50,002 nt of DNA from Pseudomonadota bacterium (lineage in GTDB: Bacteria > Desulfobacterota > Desulfarculia > Desulfarculales > Desulfarculaceae), in NCBI GenBank assembly GCA_018819925.1, contig JAHJPG010000088.1, forward strand, positions 1 through 50,002, read 5' to 3'. The notes beneath the pieces are model-generated. The model worked only from the letters and a program-made list of their open reading frames with translations, was not told the DNA's origin and did no database searches. The first letter of the stretch is position 1; each line of letters opens with the position of its first letter. A program made the translations under genes and the position numbers. This document shows, piece after piece, positions 7,956 to 48,123 of this stretch.

Positions 7956-8894
7956 CTAGGCAGACAGGGTGCAGACCAGGCGGCCCTCTCCGTCGTCTTT
8001 CACCAGGCCCTGCTCCAACAGATAATCCAGATTGTCCCGGAAGGTGGCCTCCAGCTTGCCGCCGAAGTAAAGCTCCGTGGTCTCGGGGAACCAGGGCGAG
8101 GCGCTGCCCAGCTGCCACAGCCCTTCGCGGTGCAGGGGCCCGCGCATCATCAGGGTGTAGAGCAGGATCTTGCGCACCTGGTCCCGGCCCATGCGGCGGG
8201 GGTCTTCCAGGAAGGCGGCCACCCGGGCCAGGCAGGCCTCGATGGCCGCCGGGCCGTCGGCCAAGGGCGCGCCGTGGCCGGGGTAGATGGCCTGCACCCT
8301 GAGACGGCCGAGGCGCTCCAGGCTCTCGCGCAGCCTGAAGGGCGCGTCCAGGCCCTCGATGCGAGTGGTCAGCACCCCGAAATCGCCGTCCCACACGGTG
8401 TCCGCGCTCACCAGCCAGCCGGTGTCCATGCAGTAAAGGGCGATCTGGCCCATGCCGTGGCCAGGGGTGTGCAGCACCAGCCAGTTCATCTGGCCCAGGG
8501 TGAGCACCTCGCCGTCGGTGAGCGAGTGGTGGGTGGGGAAAAAGGCGGCGTCCTGCTGGTAATAGCCCCACCAGGTGGCCCAGTCGTTGCGCTGGTCCAC
8601 GAAGTAGCGGTCCACCTGGTGCAGGGCCACCTGGCAGCCCGAGCGGCGCTGGAACTCCGCGTTGCCCCCGATGTGGTCGCAATGGGCGTGGGTGTTGACG
8701 ATGAGCTCCACGTCCTCGATGGCCAGGCCGCACTGGGCGATGAGCGACTCGGTCTCGGCCGCGTCGCGGATGTAGGCGGTGTCCACCAGGGTGCGGGGCT
8801 TGCCGGTGAACACCAGGTGGTTGCCGTTTAGCCAGCCGCGCTGGATGAAAAACAGATCGTCGGTTATGGGGATGATGCGGGGGTCCATAGTCAT
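7956..8894 (-). CDS. MBL-fold metallo-hydrolase
   Basis: The 312-residue protein carries the metallo-beta-lactamase signature THAHCDHIGG (His69, His71, Asp73, His74). The further ligand motifs are TPGHGMGQ, SADTVWDGDFG and YPGHG. The C-terminal third is a winged-helix-like extension (RKILLYTLMMRGPLHREGL) seen in glyoxalase-II/RNase-Z-like hydrolases. The sequence is high-G+C like the chromosome. Its ATG overlaps the stop of the AT-rich gene upstream by four bases; an alternative ATG two codons in (8888) begins MDPRII. The substrate is unknown, probably a thioester or similar. Confidence 0.9.
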   Translation of the reverse strand: MTMDPRIIPITDDLFFIQRGWLNGNHLVFTGKPRTLVDTAYIRDAAETESLIAQCGLAIEDVELIVNTHAHCDHIGGNAEFQRRSGCQVALHQVDRYFVDQRNDWATWWGYYQQDAAFFPTHHSLTDGEVLTLGQMNWLVLHTPGHGMGQIALYCMDTGWLVSADTVWDGDFGVLTTRIEGLDAPFRLRESLERLGRLRVQAIYPGHGAPLADGPAAIEACLARVAAFLEDPRRMGRDQVRKILLYTLMMRGPLHREGLWQLGSASPWFPETTELYFGGKLEATFRDNLDYLLEQGLVKDDGEGRLVCTLSA

Positions 8895-10192
8895 CTCGCA
8901 CTAATAAATGAAAAAAAGTAATCCATAACAGCATTCATGCGAAGAAAATCATAATCAACAGAAGAAACGGGATCTCTAAAATACGAACCGCTACTCTTTC
9001 GCACGAATGCTAAAGATGGAGCAATTTTTTTCATTTTGGATAGCCTCCATTCATATATACGCATGCTCCACATATAATCATCTGCCTTTTGACTCCCGGT
9101 AGGCTCTACTTCAACGCCTTCACGCTTTAAAATATCAACAATTTCTTGATCCGTTTTCTTTGACTCGTTAGTTTCTTCATAACACGAAGCCGGCAAACAT
9201 AAGGTGCGATGAGCAGCAGCGTGGCGCATGTCGGCCATAGAACCCACCCATTCTCCATATTTAACATCGTACAAGTTAACGAGTTTCGGATTTATTTCCT
9301 TAAGTTTGCCCCAAAATTTCTTTGACATTATACCGCACTGTTTAGTTTTTAAATCAAACTCTTTTATATTATTAACAATCAATGTCAAATGTTCTAGCAT
9401 GCCCCACAGCATCAAATAAAAATTTGTTAAATGATAATTTAAAAACATAGAATGTCCATCTTCTACGCCTCGGCGATAAGATGCATCTTTCTGCACTTGG
9501 CCATATAGAACCATATCGCGAGAATAAGCAACAAACGAATATCGGTTCAGCAATGCGCTACGAATCATCTCTCTCAACTCATCATCTTTGAATTTTTTGT
9601 TATGCATATCGTACCAATGATATAATCGCACCCCTTTCCAGTGGATAAGCAAATAGTAAGCATCCAATGATATATTTTCCCAGTCGCTAAAAACTGATGA
9701 ATACACTTCATTTGCGACAGCTATTACATCAAGAGTATCCATAAATTTATAATGGTCTATGATAGTAAGCCGATGATACTGATAGAGAGTATATCTACAT
9801 TTAAGCAGCAGAGGATTATTAGTCACAATCCCATCAGATGCCATTTTATTTGCAAGAGCAATGAGGTAACGAGCTTGTTTTGCATCATCACTTTCGCCAA
9901 GCAACTCTGCCCTCAGCTCTTCACTAATATATTCATCTAATTCTATCTGTAGATCGATGTCGTCTAATTCCGCAGGCACGAGATACTGTTCAAGGTTATA
10001 AAAGACGGGGTTCATCTTGGCTAAATGTGATGGATCAACAAGGGTTGTCAGTTTAATATTAGCTTTTTGTTTTTGGTTCACTAACTCGTCAAGAAAAACT
10101 GACAGACTAATTATTTCGTTAGCCCTTAAATTAATAATGTATGGCAAATCTAAAATAAAATTAAAGTTTGTCGTTCGATGATAGTTCATCAC
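8891..10192 (-). CDS. AT-rich foreign gene: probable HEPN-domain RNase or defence protein
   Basis: I do not recognise this 433-residue family by name. Composition is the first clue: the gene is strongly AT-rich, with Ile, Asn, Lys and Tyr codons that its neighbours hardly use, and the change is abrupt at both ends. The C-terminal half is helical and contains MADMRHAAAHRT, an R-x4-H motif (Arg323, His324, His328) of the kind that forms the active site of HEPN ribonucleases. The first 130 residues, with ILDLPYI near Asp15, Asp102/Asp103 and a LIALANKMASDGIVTNN stretch, vaguely resemble a degenerate PIN-like fold; this is weak. GTG 10192 or ATG 10189 could be the start, and no clear ribosome-binding site is seen. 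It lies just past a terminator and may depend on read-through. Confidence 0.72.
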   Translation of the reverse strand: MMNYHRTTNFNFILDLPYIINLRANEIISLSVFLDELVNQKQKANIKLTTLVDPSHLAKMNPVFYNLEQYLVPAELDDIDLQIELDEYISEELRAELLGESDDAKQARYLIALANKMASDGIVTNNPLLLKCRYTLYQYHRLTIIDHYKFMDTLDVIAVANEVYSSVFSDWENISLDAYYLLIHWKGVRLYHWYDMHNKKFKDDELREMIRSALLNRYSFVAYSRDMVLYGQVQKDASYRRGVEDGHSMFLNYHLTNFYLMLWGMLEHLTLIVNNIKEFDLKTKQCGIMSKKFWGKLKEINPKLVNLYDVKYGEWVGSMADMRHAAAHRTLCLPASCYEETNESKKTDQEIVDILKREGVEVEPTGSQKADDYMWSMRIYEWRLSKMKKIAPSLAFVRKSSGSYFRDPVSSVDYDFLRMNAVMDYFFSFISAR

Positions 10193-10210: not shown

Positions 10211-10237
10211 AAACGAACCGACCCTATTTGGGCCGGT
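10211..10237 (-). terminator. intrinsic terminator of the nuoEF-like operon
   Basis: On the minus strand CCGGCCC (10236-10230) pairs through a five-base loop with GGGTCGG (10224-10218), including one G-U pair, and is followed by the T-rich stretch TTCGTTTTGTT. It lies 25 bases past the diaphorase stop and just before the AT-rich gene. Confidence 0.75.
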
Positions 10238-10261
10238 CCGCTAATTCTAACGCAAAGCGAC

Positions 10262-12136
10262 CTAGTAGATGGCGTCGTACTTACAGTTCTCCAAGCAAGT
10301 CTTGCACTTGATGCACTTGTCAAGATGGATGACCGCAGGCTCCTTCTTTTTCCAGGATATGGCGTCCACCGGGCAGTTCTTGAAGCACAGGCCGCACATC
10401 TTGCACTTGTCCAGGTCCACCTTGAACTCCAGCAGGGCCACGCAGGAGCGGGCGGGGCATTTCTTGTCCACCACGTGGGCCAGGTATTCCTCGCGGAAAT
10501 AGCGCAGGGTGGAGAGCACCGGGTTGGGGCCGGTCTGGCCCAGGCCGCAGAGGCTGGCCTCCTGGATCATTCCGGCCAGCTCCTCCAGGGTTTCTATATC
10601 CGCCAACTCGCCCTTGCCCTCGGTGATCTTCTCCAGGATTTGCAGCATCCGGCGGGTGCCCTCCCGGCAGGGAGTGCACTTGCCGCAGGACTCCTCCTGC
10701 ACGAAGTCCATGAAGAAGCGGGCCATGTCCACCATGCAGGTGGAGTCGTCCATGACGATCATGCCGCCGCTGCCCATGATGGCCCCGGCCTTGACGATGG
10801 CCTCGTAGTCGCAGATGGTGTCCAGATGCTCCTCGGGGATGCAGCCGCCCGAGGGGCCGCCCAGCTGCACCGCCTTGAACTTGCGGTGCTTCTTGGGGAT
10901 GCCCTCGCCGATGTCGTAGATGATGGTCCTGAGCGGGGTGCCCATGGGCACCTCCACCAGGCCGATGTTGTTCACGTGGCCGGTGAGGGCGAAGACTTTG
11001 GTGCCCTTGGAGCCCTCGGTGCCGATGGAGGCGTACCAGTCCCCGCCATTGGTGATGATCTGAGGGATGTTGGCCCAGGTCTCCACGTTGTTCAAGATGG
11101 TGGGCTTGTTCCACAGGCCAGCCTGGGCCGGGAAGGGAGGCCGGGGCCGGGGCATGCCCCGCTTGCCCTCGATGGAGCGCATGAGCGCGGTTTCCTCGCC
11201 GCAGACAAAGGCGCCGGCGCCCTGGTAGATCTGAAGGTCGAAGCTGAAGCCGGTGCCCAGAATGTCCGGACCCAGCAGGCCGTACTCCTTGGCCTGGTCT
11301 ATGGCCAGTTGCAGGCGGTGCACCGCCAGGGGGTATTCGGCCCGGCAGTACACGTAGCCGTGGTGGCTGCCGATGGCCTTGGCCGCGATGACCATGCCCT
11401 CCACCACCGAGTGGGGGTCGGCCTCCAAGATGGAGCGGTCCATGAAGGCTCCGGGGTCTCCCTCGTCGGCGTTGCACAGCACGAACTTGGTCTCGCCGGC
11501 GGCCTTTTGGCAAAACTCCCACTTCAGGCCGGTGGGGAAGCCGGCCCCGCCCCTGCCCCGCAGGCCGGATTTTTTCACCTCGGCCACGATATCCTCGGGG
11601 GTCATCTCCTTGAGGGCCTTGGCCATGCCCTGGTAGCCACCCTGGCCGATGTATTCGTCGATCTTCTCCGCGTCCAGCAGGCTGCGGTTCTTGAGGGTGA
11701 TTAGCCTTTGCAGGGCGAAGAAGGGAATGTCGCGCATATGGGGGATGCGTTTTTTGGTGCCGGGGTCCTTGTACAGCAGGCGCTCCACCGGCTCACCATT
11801 AACGCAATAGGACGTCACCAGTTCCGGGATGTCCTTTTCCTCCAGGTTCACGTAAAAAATGCCCTCGGGATAGGAGACCATCACCGGCCCCAGGGCGCAG
11901 AAGCCGTTGCACCCTGTCTCCACCACGGCCACCTCTTCGGCCAGGCCCTGCTTGGCTATCTCGGCCACCAGGGCCGCGTTAACCGCCACGCTGCCCGCCG
12001 CCTGGCAACCGGTGCCCCCGCAGATGAGCAGGTGCATGCGCTGGGGGCCCACGCCGGTTTGTCCGTGGCGCAGGGCCTGGGCTTGCTTGGATTGTTCCTG
12101 AATCTGCGCGAGATCGTTTATCGTGAGCTGGGACAT
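10262..12136 (-). CDS. NuoF/HndC/HydB-like NADH-binding flavoprotein subunit
   Basis: The 624-residue protein has the extended layout of HydB/HndC rather than of respiratory NuoF. It starts with a thioredoxin-like [2Fe-2S] domain (CGGTGC near residue 39, then CNGFC). The FMN/NADH domain follows with GRGGAGFPTGLKWEF and CNADEGDPGA, then an SLBB region and the [4Fe-4S] motif SCGKCTPCREGTRRM. Two ferredoxin clusters end it (CKMCGLCFKNCP and CIKCKTCLENC). It oxidises or reduces NAD(H) in a soluble multi-subunit complex, for example an electron-bifurcating hydrogenase or formate dehydrogenase. Only the NuoE partner is adjacent, and no catalytic hydrogenase subunit is in the window, so the true partner must be elsewhere. 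Confidence 0.93.
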   Translation of the reverse strand: MSQLTINDLAQIQEQSKQAQALRHGQTGVGPQRMHLLICGGTGCQAAGSVAVNAALVAEIAKQGLAEEVAVVETGCNGFCALGPVMVSYPEGIFYVNLEEKDIPELVTSYCVNGEPVERLLYKDPGTKKRIPHMRDIPFFALQRLITLKNRSLLDAEKIDEYIGQGGYQGMAKALKEMTPEDIVAEVKKSGLRGRGGAGFPTGLKWEFCQKAAGETKFVLCNADEGDPGAFMDRSILEADPHSVVEGMVIAAKAIGSHHGYVYCRAEYPLAVHRLQLAIDQAKEYGLLGPDILGTGFSFDLQIYQGAGAFVCGEETALMRSIEGKRGMPRPRPPFPAQAGLWNKPTILNNVETWANIPQIITNGGDWYASIGTEGSKGTKVFALTGHVNNIGLVEVPMGTPLRTIIYDIGEGIPKKHRKFKAVQLGGPSGGCIPEEHLDTICDYEAIVKAGAIMGSGGMIVMDDSTCMVDMARFFMDFVQEESCGKCTPCREGTRRMLQILEKITEGKGELADIETLEELAGMIQEASLCGLGQTGPNPVLSTLRYFREEYLAHVVDKKCPARSCVALLEFKVDLDKCKMCGLCFKNCPVDAISWKKKEPAVIHLDKCIKCKTCLENCKYDAIY

Positions 12137-31533: not shown

Positions 31534-31812
31534 TGACCCCAGCCGTGCATCCCGCTTCGAGCCTGCCGTCAAGGGGTCTGTGAAGCACAAGGTCGAGGAC
31601 CAGATCGCTCCGCGACACGCACCGCATCGCTTACCGCTGCTTCCTTCCGGACCTGACGGGGTTCACGACCGCACGTCGCGCGGTGTCCGGACTTTACCCC
31701 GGTATCACGAGAACTCCCCTAATGGCAAAACCCTAGGCGGGCCTTCGACCCCGCAAAAGCGGATTTCGGGAAAAGGGCACCGCTAGCTCCCCGCCTAGCA
31801 CGGCCGGGGTCA
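31534..31812 (-). ncRNA. ffs: signal recognition particle RNA, long Alu-domain type
   Basis: On the minus strand the invariant SRP core GTCAGGTCCGGAAGGAAGCA lies at about 31657-31638. Further 5' is a block much like the Alu domain of Bacillus scRNA: GCCGTGCTAGGCGGGGAGC, then AGCGGTGCCC and AATCCGC. The two ends pair: TGACCCCGGCCGTGC (31812-31798) with GCACGGCTGGGGTCA (31548-31534), one G-U mismatch. The RNA is thus about 279 bases, the long bacterial form, not the short 4.5S type of enterobacteria. A TTGTTTTT run just after the end is the likely terminator. It scaffolds Ffh for cotranslational membrane targeting. Confidence 0.93.
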
Positions 31813-31832
31813 TAATTCGTTCTTGGTCAGCC

Positions 31833-31868
31833 GCAAAAAACAGCCCCGCCGCTCAATTGGGCGGGGCG
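31833..31868 (-). terminator. intrinsic terminator of the HU gene
   Basis: On the minus strand GCCCCGCC (31867-31860) pairs with GGCGGGGC (31850-31843) through a nine-base loop and is followed by TGTTTTTTG. It separates the HU gene from the SRP RNA gene. Confidence 0.85.
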
Positions 31869-31921
31869 GACACAATAATATCAGAGGGTTGCCAACCTGG
31901 CCCACAGGCCAGGGGGCGGGC

Positions 31922-32203
31922 TTAATCGACGCTGTCCACTCGTTCCTTAAGCTCTTTGCCCACTTTGAAAAAGGGCAGCTTTTTCTGGCCTACGTCGATT
32001 ATCTCGCCCGTCTTGGGATTGCGTCCCTGGTAGCCATCGTAGTCCTTGACCTTGAAGCTGCCAAATCCGCGTATCTCCACCCTATCACCGAGAACGAGAG
32101 CATCCTCGACTGATCCGAAAACGGTGTTGATCACCATTTCCGCCTTCTTGATGGTTAGGCCCTCGGCTTTAGCCAGCGCCTCTATAAGTTGGGACTTGTT
32201 CAT
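31922..32203 (-). CDS. HU/IHF family DNA-binding protein
   Basis: The 93-residue histone-like protein bends DNA as a dimer. N-terminal helices (MNKSQLIEALAKAEGLTIKK) are followed by the beta-arm region GDRVEIRGFGSFKVKDYDGY and the intercalating RNPKTGEIIDV, with its conserved Arg-Asn-Pro. The C-terminus is KVGKELKERVDSVD. Both HU and IHF share this form; Tyr and Gln in the arm do not decide. It has its own near-consensus promoter (32251-32279), an AAGGAG ribosome-binding site and a terminator, so it is a monocistronic, well expressed gene. Confidence 0.95.
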   Translation of the reverse strand: MNKSQLIEALAKAEGLTIKKAEMVINTVFGSVEDALVLGDRVEIRGFGSFKVKDYDGYQGRNPKTGEIIDVGQKKLPFFKVGKELKERVDSVD

Positions 32204-32250
32204 GGACGGGCACTCCTTGCCGGTAATAAAGCGGTAGGCTTTAGCTAACG

Positions 32251-32279
32251 ATTGTATGCAGTTGGCTTGCTTCTGTCAA
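32251..32279 (-). promoter_or_regulatory. near-consensus sigma70 promoter of the HU gene
   Basis: On the minus strand TTGACA (32279-32274), a 17-base spacer and TACAAT (32256-32251) lie about 50 bases before the HU start. The remaining sequence to 32547 between the divergent genes is AT-richer than average and includes a second TTGACA (32365-32360, minus) without a good -10; nothing else is recognised there. Confidence 0.75.
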
Positions 32280-32547
32280 GCGGCTTAACTCGGGTGTGAA
32301 TCCGGCCCACATAATGATGTACACTTTTCCTATCATGCCTAGAGTAGTAAGCCCCGGCCTGTCAAGCTCTTTTTATAAATTTATCTATGGATTAGTCCTA
32401 CTTCTCACCCGCAAGCAGCGCCCCGCGAACCCCCGGGACGCCCCAAATTTGGACGTCTGGCCGCTCTCTGTCCTCCATGGGGTCTTTTACCAAGCCCTTG
32501 CCTCATGCTATTAGTTAAACTGTCTTTAACCGGAGAGAACAAGCAAA

Positions 32548-33573
32548 TTGCGTCACTCGCGCAACATCATACTGGCTGCCATTCTGGTCTGCTGCCTTTG
32601 GCCGGGGGCCGCCGCCGCCCAGGAGCCCAGGGAGTTCCTGGACCAGGCCATCTACCAACAAGCCTACCAAGACCAGCGCTGGGCCATCTCACCCCAAGAG
32701 TTGGACTTTTTGGTGGACAACATGGTGGGGGTTCTGGCCGTGGTCAGCCAGCCGGAGTTCAAGCGGCGGCATCCCCTGCTGGGCAATCTGGTTCTGGAGC
32801 AGCTGGGCGGCACGGCGCATTCTTTCAACCTGAGCACCTACAGCAACCGCGCCCAGATGACCATGGAGCGCCCCGGCCCCAAACAGATCGTGTACCTGGC
32901 CCAGGTGACCATGCACAAGCTGGGGTTGTCGGTGAGCGGGCAGATGCTGATCTGGCTGCGCCTGCACTACACCTCGCCCCAGGACCCAGATATGCGAGCC
33001 GAGGTCACCGTGGCCTTTCGCCCGGCTTCGGACATGCTGGCCACCGCCCTCAAGCCGGTGATGGCCTCCTTTCAGGAGGAGATGGACCGCCTGGGCAACA
33101 AGGCCATGGTGCAAATCCAGGACTTCCTGCGCCTGTATCAACAGGAACGCCAAGGGGCCTTCAGCCGGGCGGGATTGCTGAATCAGTTGGCCCTGGTCAA
33201 CCAGCGCCGTCTGGTGCAGGCACAGGAGCTAAAGCAACGGGGCGCTCCCGGCGGGCAGGGATTGCCCGGAGGTGGTCTGGGCCTGGCTGCCTTGGCCCTG
33301 GCTGCGGCCTTGGTGCTGCTTTTGGGCCTGGCCCTGGGCTGGGTGCTGGCCAACCGCCTAAGGGCATCCCGCGATCAGAAGCTCCTGCGCCGCAGCCTGC
33401 GGGCCCAGCGCGAGCAGGCCGTCTTGGACAAAAGGCTGGTAAAATTGTTAAAAAGCAGAGGGGTTTCCCCCAAGGCCGCAGCCGAGGCTAAAGAAGAGCA
33501 CCAAAGGCTCAACCGGGAGTTGCTCCAGCGGCTGGGGCGCGGCCCCAAGGACTCCCGGCAAGCGAACAAATAG
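32548..33573 (+). CDS. membrane-anchored protein of unknown function
   Basis: This 341-residue protein starts at a TTG with GGAGAG upstream. It has a signal peptide (residues 5-24, ending AAAAQ), then an extracytoplasmic region of about 210 residues without recognised motifs (a strand-rich stretch RAQMTMERPGPKQIVYLAQV and a helix EEMDRLGNKAMVQIQDFLR). One strong membrane segment near residues 245-275 follows. The tail is very basic, helical and cytoplasmic, with RRSLRAQREQAVLDKRL and RGVSPKAAAEAKEEH. I do not recognise the family. It sits upstream of glycosyltransferase genes and could be an envelope or glycan-related factor. Confidence 0.78.
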   Translation: MRHSRNIILAAILVCCLWPGAAAAQEPREFLDQAIYQQAYQDQRWAISPQELDFLVDNMVGVLAVVSQPEFKRRHPLLGNLVLEQLGGTAHSFNLSTYSNRAQMTMERPGPKQIVYLAQVTMHKLGLSVSGQMLIWLRLHYTSPQDPDMRAEVTVAFRPASDMLATALKPVMASFQEEMDRLGNKAMVQIQDFLRLYQQERQGAFSRAGLLNQLALVNQRRLVQAQELKQRGAPGGQGLPGGGLGLAALALAAALVLLLGLALGWVLANRLRASRDQKLLRRSLRAQREQAVLDKRLVKLLKSRGVSPKAAAEAKEEHQRLNRELLQRLGRGPKDSRQANK

Positions 33574-45110: not shown

Positions 45111-46469
45111 ATGACGCATCAACCAGGCTCAGGCCCCAAACCACGCATTGGGGGTCTGGTGTTGCTTGGCCGCATGCTTTTTATCCTGGCTGCCCTGTCC
45201 CTGGCGCTTTGCTCCCCTTCCGCGACGCAGGCGGCCCTGGTCACCCCTTACGTTACCCTGACCGGCGGCTGGAGCGACAACGTTCGCCTCACCCGGGTGC
45301 CTCGCTCGGACTTCTTCCTAAAAGTGGGGGCGGGCATTAACGGTGAATGGAAATGGCCGGGGCACTCCCTCATGGTCCGAACCGGGGTGCAATACGCCCA
45401 ATACCTGGACCTTGACGAATTAGACGGTTTTGACAGCGCCACATTGGGATTCAATTACCAATACGCATCCTCCCCCCGTTGGCAATTTTTGATCAGCGAC
45501 ATCTACATCACCACCTTTGACAAGGCCGAGTTGTCCGACACCGGTGAGCTGGTGGAGGTGCGGCCGGGCGCCGGCCGGATGGACCGCAACACCTTAACCC
45601 TCAAGGCGACCCACAAATACTCTTCCACCGGCAGCGTGGACCTAGGCTACACCAACATCTACACCAAGGGTGAGAATGAGGACCAGGAGACCACCCGTTT
45701 CAACCGAATGGACGCCAACTGGATCCACCGCCCGACCTATGATTGGGAATTGGCGGTGGGGGTCAGCGGCACGCGCACCGAATATGAGATATCGCCCAAC
45801 CAGGACCGGGGCCGGGCCTACACCCGGCTTACCCGGTTGGTGGGACCCAGTATGCGGGCCTACGGCCAGCTTTCCTACGCCATAAACCGGTCCACCAGCG
45901 ACCAGGAGCTGGTGGAGGACAGCCGTAACTACGAATCGTTTTCCCTGGAGGCCGGCTTAAGCCAGGACATGAGCCGCAGGTTATCCTGGAAGTTCGGGGC
46001 CGGCTGGTCCATGGTCAGCGGCGACAGCCAATACAATAACGCGGCCGACAAAGGTTTTCCGCTACTGAACGCCTCGATGCGCTACCGGGGGCTCAAGTGG
46101 AATCTCACCGGCTATGCCATCGCCGACCTGGGACAGTTCGACTACCTGGGAGACAACTCCGGCCTCGCCGTCAGCCACCGGGCCGGGGTTACCTTTGGCT
46201 ACAGATTCACCAATTTCCAAAACCTCAGTTTGACCGTGGAATACGTGCGCAACGATTACCAGGAAAGCCCCATCGCCAACTTGAATAGTCAACAGGGAAC
46301 AGTGGATTCCTATCGTTTCTTGGCCCGCTACACTTGGCAAATCCATAGACATTGGCGGATATCCATGGAATATTCATATTTAAATCGTGATGCCGAGGTG
46401 GATAATGACGATAGGCAGCAAAATCAGGTATTGTTAATCTTGTACACTGATTATCCATTTAAGTGGTGA
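45111..46469 (+). CDS. outer-membrane beta-barrel protein of the EPS locus (PEP-CTERM-associated type)
   Basis: The 452-residue protein has a signal peptide (hydrophobic residues 17-40, ending QAA) and then a long run of alternating hydrophobic/polar strands without large domains, such as YVTLTGGWSDNVRLTRV and VDLGYTNIYTKGENED. The sequence ends TDYPFKW, with the aromatic closing strand of a barrel. It matches the layout of the uncharacterised barrel proteins next to PEP-CTERM EPS export genes. It may be the pore or an exit accessory. It follows the exporter by 43 bases. Confidence 0.82.
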   Translation: MTHQPGSGPKPRIGGLVLLGRMLFILAALSLALCSPSATQAALVTPYVTLTGGWSDNVRLTRVPRSDFFLKVGAGINGEWKWPGHSLMVRTGVQYAQYLDLDELDGFDSATLGFNYQYASSPRWQFLISDIYITTFDKAELSDTGELVEVRPGAGRMDRNTLTLKATHKYSSTGSVDLGYTNIYTKGENEDQETTRFNRMDANWIHRPTYDWELAVGVSGTRTEYEISPNQDRGRAYTRLTRLVGPSMRAYGQLSYAINRSTSDQELVEDSRNYESFSLEAGLSQDMSRRLSWKFGAGWSMVSGDSQYNNAADKGFPLLNASMRYRGLKWNLTGYAIADLGQFDYLGDNSGLAVSHRAGVTFGYRFTNFQNLSLTVEYVRNDYQESPIANLNSQQGTVDSYRFLARYTWQIHRHWRISMEYSYLNRDAEVDNDDRQQNQVLLILYTDYPFKW

Positions 46470-46473
46470 GGAT

Positions 46474-48123
46474 GTGGAAGGCACCGGCATAAACATAAAA
46501 AGCTACGTCTTCCTGCTCAAGCGCCGATGGATTATGGTCTTGCCCATTTTCCTGTTGGTGCTTGCGGGGGGAGTGGCCTATTGCCTCTTCTGGCCACCCA
46601 TTTTCGAGGCATCCTGCCTGGTGGTGGTGCAGCCCCAGAAGGTGCCCGGCGACATCATCCGCCCCACGGTGACCAGCAAAATCGAAGAACGCCTCCAAAT
46701 CATTACCCAGCAGGTGCTTAGCCGAACCCGGCTCACCGAAATCATCGAGCGTTTCGACCTGTACCCCAATATGCGCAACAAGGTGACCCCCGACGAGTTG
46801 GCCGAGGTCATGCGCCGGGACATCACCATCAAAATCAGCCGCAAGAACTACTTCACCATCACCTTCCTTTATGCCAACGCCTCCACGGTGGCCGCGGTGA
46901 CCAACGCCGTTGCCGCCTTTTACGTTGACAGCAACCTGCGCCTCAGGGAACAGGACGCCGTGGGCACCGCCCGCTTCCTGGAACGGGAGCTCACCCGCAT
47001 GCGAGGTCAGCTATCCGAATGGGAAAAAAGGGTCACCAGCTACAAGCAGGAGCATTTGCAAGAACTTCCCGAATCGCGTCAGTTCAACCTGAAGCTCATG
47101 GACCAGATGCGCCAGGACGCCAACATCATGGACGGCAAGGTGCAGAATCTTAGGACGCGTTTACACGGATACGAGCAAGACATCGCCGTTTGGCAGCGCT
47201 GGATAGAAGGCCTAGAGCAACGCCGAGCCGAAGCCAAGTCCCGTGGCCTGCAAGGCGGCGGCTCCAGCCAGTCCGGCGGCCAAGATGACGCCAGCCCCGA
47301 AGGCATCAAAAAGCGCATTGGTGAACTCAGGGTCTTCTACACCGATGACCACCCGGACATCCAGCGCCTGTTGCGCCATCTCAGAAAGGCCGAGGCCCTC
47401 GAGGCTGCCAAGGAGGCCAAGAAAAAGGCCGAGGCCGAGGCTGCTGGCTTGACCGGGGAGCAGGCAAAACGCGCCGCCATCGATGCAGAGCTGGCAAAGG
47501 GTAAGATGAGTATTCGCAAACTTCAGGATCGTATTGAACAAATCAACGGCGAAATCCACGAAACCGAAACCAGAAAGAACAAATATCTGGAGCAGGTGGC
47601 CATAGTTAATAAGCGGATAGAGGCAGCACCTACGGTTACCGAGCAGCTCCACGAACTCACCCGTGGCTACGAGGAGTTGAACACCGCCTACCAGAAGCTG
47701 CACGGCAAGTGGTTGGAAGCGCGCATGTCCGCCAACATGGAGCGCACCCAGCGTGGTGAGCAGTTCGAAGTGGTGGACCCGGCCCAGGTGCCCGAGGCAC
47801 CCTTCCGCCCCCAGGTAAAGCGGGCCATACCTGTGACCATTGGTCTGGCACTGGCCCTGTCGGTGGGCCTGGCCTTTGGGTTGAGCTACATAGACGTGTC
47901 TTTCACATCTTCTTTGCAGTTGGAGCGCCAGTCCGGCTTGCCGGTGCTTATGGTCCTGCCCCCCCTGGAAACAGCCGAGGAGCAGTCTGCCGCCGTGCGG
48001 CGCAACATAATTTTTGGGGCCGTGTTCGGCGTGATCTTCCTGTTCCTGCTGGGCCTGGTTGGCATATTGGTAACCGGGCGGGGGCCGGCCCTTAAACAAA
48101 TGCTCATGGGATTGGTATCCTGA
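46474..48123 (+). CDS. Wzz-type polysaccharide chain-length determinant with GNVR motif region
   Basis: This 549-residue inner-membrane protein has two membrane segments (about residues 20-40 and 450-475, IPVTIGLALALSVGLAFGLS) and a second hydrophobic span near residue 517. A long periplasmic coiled coil lies between. It resembles the PEP-CTERM chain-length proteins, with an Ala/Lys/Glu-rich insert (EAAKEAKKKAEAEAAGL) in the coil. No C-terminal kinase domain is fused, so a separate tyrosine kinase is expected. The GTG start is 4 bases after the barrel gene stop. It controls polymer length with the kinase. Confidence 0.9.
   Translation: MEGTGINIKSYVFLLKRRWIMVLPIFLLVLAGGVAYCLFWPPIFEASCLVVVQPQKVPGDIIRPTVTSKIEERLQIITQQVLSRTRLTEIIERFDLYPNMRNKVTPDELAEVMRRDITIKISRKNYFTITFLYANASTVAAVTNAVAAFYVDSNLRLREQDAVGTARFLERELTRMRGQLSEWEKRVTSYKQEHLQELPESRQFNLKLMDQMRQDANIMDGKVQNLRTRLHGYEQDIAVWQRWIEGLEQRRAEAKSRGLQGGGSSQSGGQDDASPEGIKKRIGELRVFYTDDHPDIQRLLRHLRKAEALEAAKEAKKKAEAEAAGLTGEQAKRAAIDAELAKGKMSIRKLQDRIEQINGEIHETETRKNKYLEQVAIVNKRIEAAPTVTEQLHELTRGYEELNTAYQKLHGKWLEARMSANMERTQRGEQFEVVDPAQVPEAPFRPQVKRAIPVTIGLALALSVGLAFGLSYIDVSFTSSLQLERQSGLPVLMVLPPLETAEEQSAAVRRNIIFGAVFGVIFLFLLGLVGILVTGRGPALKQMLMGLVS

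Follow-up and report, generated by a model that had tools for sequence, protein, structure and literature searches.

The window analyzed in this study is a stretch of 50,002 nucleotides, in which positions 8891–10192 of the minus strand hold a single intact open reading frame of 433 codons. The encoded protein is 433 amino acid residues long, and its frame contains no internal stop codon. The gene starts with a GTG at position 10192 that is directly followed by an ATG, so that translation may begin at 10189, and its stop codon is at positions 8891–8893. The G+C content of this gene was 0.367 (37%) and its GC3 was 0.342 (34%), whereas the flanking genes had G+C contents of 63–72% and GC3 of 0.84–0.93 (six neighbors). 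This AT-rich dip was much stronger than any other in the window, and its edges were also the edges of the gene, which bears out the claim of an earlier note on this DNA that a sharp drop in G+C is confined to one gene. These results support a foreign, AT-rich one-gene insertion in a GC-rich bacterium. Two milder dips, with G+C contents of 0.50–0.56, were found elsewhere in the window at positions 46001–46750 and 31751–32750.

Upstream of the insertion is a gene for a NuoF/HydB-like iron-sulfur oxidoreductase subunit (positions 10262–12136, minus strand; the name was read from its sequence), a resident neighbor whose terminator hairpin (10212–10242, minus strand) forms the upstream edge of the insertion. 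The downstream edge is formed by a gene for a metallo-beta-lactamase-fold (MBL) hydrolase (7956–8894, minus strand). In the genus comparison, the occupied site was identical in the window genome (G000), G005 and G001, where the gene lies past the terminator hairpin of the NuoF-like gene and has the MBL gene as its immediate downstream neighbor. The gene was absent from five of the eight genus members. Four of these five (G004, G006, G002, and G003) had a complete empty site, in which the corresponding hairpin was followed by a short leader and then by the MBL start; the contig of the fifth, G007, begins at the MBL gene, and its site is incomplete. Thus, the comparison with close genomes lacking the gene, which the earlier note had proposed, placed the ends of the insertion at the NuoF hairpin and the MBL start. 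No integrase gene was seen at the insertion edges.

The earlier note had also suggested that the gene and the MBL hydrolase might be linked. All eight genus members carried the MBL gene but only three of them the 433-codon gene, so the link was not supported and the MBL hydrolase is regarded as a resident of the genus rather than as a functional partner. The four-base overlap behind this suggestion arises only when an additional ATG further upstream is taken as the MBL start. With the start common to most of the genus (ATGGAC), the MBL gene begins 2 bases past the stop codon in G000, and this distance is 5–6 bases in G005 and G001.

Searches with the window protein against Pfam, NCBIfam, PADLOC, and PHROGs returned no family at E ≤ 10, which means that no PADLOC model of a known anti-phage defense system was matched at this level either, and sequence searches of the PDB yielded only noise. 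Three relatives were found: those of G005 and G001 from the same genus and one from a distant genome, G438 (JAKLET010000006.1, Deltaproteobacteria RA.bin14). G438 was assigned to the same phylum, as a phylum search centered on it returned genomes that matched G001 and G005 with identical coordinates. In a class-level scan of 63 genomes, the gene was restricted to this genus. Sampling of the phylum (395 genomes, and another 395 centered on G438) and of 198 relatives of G438 gave no further relative, and the viral contigs, phages and plasmids searched contained no relative of the 433-residue protein. It probably represents a new, rare and unnamed family, although systems of this kind are already known. 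The G438 genome encodes, a few genes upstream of its copy, a small protein that has an R-N-x3-H motif (RNEVTH) and a weak match to DUF4145 (L005:5131-5784); G007 encodes a similar protein (L031) with the motif RNEIAH. Next downstream of the G438 copy itself are genes for an Mrr-type nuclease and an OLD-like ATPase, a neighborhood that suggests a role in defense.

Identities among the copies were much lower than those of the adjacent proteins. Between G000 and G005, the NuoF and MBL proteins were 90 and 83% identical, respectively, whereas the two copies of the candidate were 32% identical. The G000 copy was 32–33% identical to those of its genus mates and 34% identical to that of G438. The copies of G005 and G001 were 58% identical, yet the MBL genes of these two genomes were placed in separate clades. 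Judged from these identities, the divergence pattern does not fit simple vertical descent; it suggests repeated arrival or replacement of alleles at one site, because the other genus copies are about 33% identical to that of G000 while the neighboring proteins are 83–90% identical. The three genus copies all had a G+C content of 36–37% at this one site despite identities of 32–58%; a long-resident gene should drift toward the composition of its host.

Only the copies of G000 and G438 were intact among the four. The G005 copy contained two oppositely oriented IS3-like elements (L014:5188-7622), with an in-frame TAA just past them. The G001 copy was divided over two contigs (L017:6588-6723 and L035:1-150), whose broken ends carried hallmarks of an insertion sequence (IS), namely 16-base terminal inverted repeats (TGAGCCTATCCGCATG) and a direct repeat of 9–10 bases that marks a target duplication. 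The IS in the G001 copy differed from those in the G005 copy, and both copies were broken close to the same codon, near the boundary between the two halves of the protein.

Residues R323-H324-A-A-A-H328 (9209–9226, minus strand) constitute the proposed R-x4-H catalytic motif and are the sole R-x4-H of the window protein. In one sequence alone, such a motif is weak evidence, because 8% of shuffled copies of the protein contained R[NDH]xxxH and 48% contained R-x4-H. The motif lies within a block, ADMRHxAAH, that was invariant in all four sequences (G000, G005, G001, and G438), although their identities outside it ranged from 32 to 58%. Hence, the conservation among homologs on which the earlier note had made its proposal depend was found, and RHxAAH has the features by which HEPN motifs are recognized: R-x4-6-H, a polar residue after the arginine and conservation across the family.

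The C-terminal helical region (approximately residues 195–433; 8894–9610, minus strand) is probably a HEPN domain. The Pfam family HEPN_Cthe2314 (PF18730) was matched by the copies of G005 (E = 0.0027) and G438 (E = 0.095); the better of these scores, 18.2 bits, was below the gathering cut-off of 27.1, and the window protein itself did not match this family. Sequence divergence among HEPN families is strong (PMC3710099). The family consensus, which is not a natural sequence and whose match counts as supporting evidence, matched the HEPN part of the PADLOC model CARF-HEPN (CARF2--CARF_HEPN) at E = 5.5e-5. These weak matches spanned the motif region, and no HEPN model was matched by the controls, which were the reversed consensus and five block-shuffled ones. 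Profile comparison with one true Cthe_2314 member was near noise, however, and direct profile comparison with other R-x4-H proteins was not separated from negative controls. Another PF18730 match, in G058, was rejected as a DnaA-like protein, and PF05168, another HEPN family, was not found in the genome.

Structure prediction and fold search had both been recommended in the earlier note. The full-length AlphaFold2 model had a pLDDT of 37.5 and was set aside. The model of the G438 C-terminal domain was of moderate confidence (pLDDT 62, pTM 0.56) and contained long helices at 31–67, 75–102, 140–156, and 237–260, of which the third ended with R151 and H156 and the second contained a conserved D/E. 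This arrangement agrees with the HEPN layout described by Anantharaman et al., in which the motif ends the third helix and a D/E lies in the second (PMC3710099). Foldseek returned no match at E ≤ 0.001 for this domain; the HEPN toxins 7bxo, 8yuf, and 5yep were listed at E-values of 1.9–3.8. In the VIA search, HEPN entries were found at Z-scores of 6.1–6.3, beneath unrelated helix bundles at 7–9.5. The failure of HEPN entries to top these lists was not counted as evidence against HEPN. Given the conserved motif, the weak profile matches with clean controls and a model in which the motif closes the third helix, the C-terminal half is likely to be of the HEPN type. The HEPN ribonuclease put forward in the earlier note therefore stands in part: its motif is invariant and profile matches exist, but all of them are below threshold and the fold search gave no significant match.

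The N-terminal region (approximately residues 1–149; 9745–10192, minus strand) contains conserved F-x-F-x-x-D and D-G-I-V-T sequences, and all four N-terminal sequences have a hydrophobic strand whose last residue is D as well as a D-G-I/V-I/V-T block. When their profile was compared locally with that of seven PIN_3-type proteins, the last block was aligned in the PIN register with a score above all 60 shuffles, at a probability of 4%; the global alignment was equaled by 5 of 100 shuffles. Neither the four N-terminal sequences nor their consensus matched any Pfam PIN family. Among the PIN active-site acids, only the first D and the D before I-V-T were conserved, whereas the middle acids and the T-x-D acid were not. 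A degenerate PIN-like N-terminus, as the earlier note had raised, is therefore possible and only hinted at: the local match stands, but the probability is low and the usual acids are missing.

No antitoxin gene was found adjacent to the 433-codon gene, in agreement with the earlier note. Its neighbors are the resident NuoF and MBL genes, every other open reading frame in the island is a short one that lies within the gene or its flanks, and no Rfam RNA was matched next to it. The neighborhood thus lacks the adjacent antitoxin gene of a type II toxin-antitoxin module. Because neither an antitoxin gene nor a known RNA lies beside the gene, a one-protein RNase that is checked by its own N-terminus would be the most economical reading. 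The C-terminal half would then be an RNase of the HEPN type that requires no metal and whose active site consists of R323, H324, and H328, and it would work as a dimer, as expected from the family. The N-terminal half, perhaps with a degenerate PIN-like fold, would hold the RNase off and sense a trigger. Upon phage infection, the RNase would be released and cellular RNA cleaved, so that growth would stop. The protein would thereby provide a one-gene abortive-infection defense. Its gene would be carried alone, as cargo, at a favored position of the chromosome that is bounded by the NuoF terminator and the MBL gene, and at this position alleles would arrive, replace one another and disappear. 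To this reading, a single-gene HEPN RNase effector of a new family with a probable anti-phage role, we assign a probability of about 0.5; the gene, its foreign composition, the empty and occupied sites, the divergence of the alleles, the invariant motif and the broken copies are observed, and the RNase activity, autoinhibition, trigger and defense function are inferred. Against it stand the failure of every match to reach a curated cut-off, the lack of any match for the window gene itself, the fold search, the near-noise comparison with the Cthe_2314 member, the lack of a relative in the viral contigs, phages and plasmids searched and the breakage of two of the three genus copies, which may mean that the gene brings no lasting benefit.

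A possible though unlikely alternative is that the protein is a HEPN RNase toxin of a selfish, addiction-type or stress-effector kind rather than a phage defense, controlled by an unseen antitoxin (an RNA or a distant protein) or by its own N-terminus. It would draw on the same HEPN evidence, and a lone gene at a variable site is consistent with it, as are the broken copies of G005 and G001, which would fit a costly toxin. However, no antitoxin-like open reading frame or Rfam RNA adjoins the gene, and the distant relative in G438 lies beside defense-type genes. It is improbable that the protein is helical but not HEPN, for instance a nucleic-acid-binding or signaling protein in which RHxAAH has another role. 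The insignificant fold search, the profile matches under their cut-offs and the unusable full-length model speak for this reading, but the motif is invariant and closes the third long helix of the model, and two different HEPN profiles were weakly matched while the shuffled controls stayed clean, all of which argues against it. Finally, the gene is very unlikely to be a foreign one that has no function and decays neutrally: the family is very rare and both other genus copies are broken by ISs, one also with an in-frame stop, but the G000 and G438 copies have remained intact over 430 codons at 34% identity with their invariant blocks kept, which points to protein-level evolution of the whole family.

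HEPN RNases recur as effectors of phage defense, and several one-gene HEPN defenses came from experiment or machine learning rather than from sequence search. The family described here was missed by all four libraries despite its conserved candidate active site. An intact copy near defense-type genes, together with a genus in which empty and occupied sites are both defined, makes direct cloning and testing possible. Moreover, the apparent turnover of very different alleles at the same site would be a modest example from nature of a spot for one-gene cargo.

Among known systems, the Cthe_2314-like HEPN proteins (PF18730) share R-x4-H with the window family and gave the best sub-threshold Pfam match of its relatives. 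A 2013 survey detected no operon partner for them (PMC3710099), similar to the lone gene in the window. The window family differs in its long extra N-terminal half and in its score (18 bits; cut-off, 27). The CARF-HEPN proteins (Csm6/Csx1-like) also combine an N-terminal domain with a C-terminal HEPN domain, whose model the consensus matches; the window family, however, has no match to the CARF part. In the eukaryotic Swt1, a PIN endoRNase is combined with a HEPN domain that is probably inactive (PMC3710099), an order that the window protein would share if its N-terminus is PIN-like. The reverse distribution of activities would hold in the window protein, where the PIN reading is putative. That a catalytically dead PIN-like sensor and an active HEPN RNase are joined in one bacterial protein, encoded by a gene that stands alone and has come repeatedly to a single exact site, is a speculative and rather unlikely combination. 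One-protein HEPN defenses include DS-11 (PMC13092281) and Tha, an RNase with a C-terminal HEPN domain and no discernible N-terminal domain (PMC11087260). Tha, a tail-activated system, differs from the window protein in that it is prophage-borne, has 301 amino acid residues and carries R-N-x3-H. By its features, however, Tha is comparable to the proposed one-gene defense: both are single proteins with a C-terminal HEPN domain (a probable one in the window protein) bearing R-x4-H, an N-terminus of unknown fold and no antitoxin.
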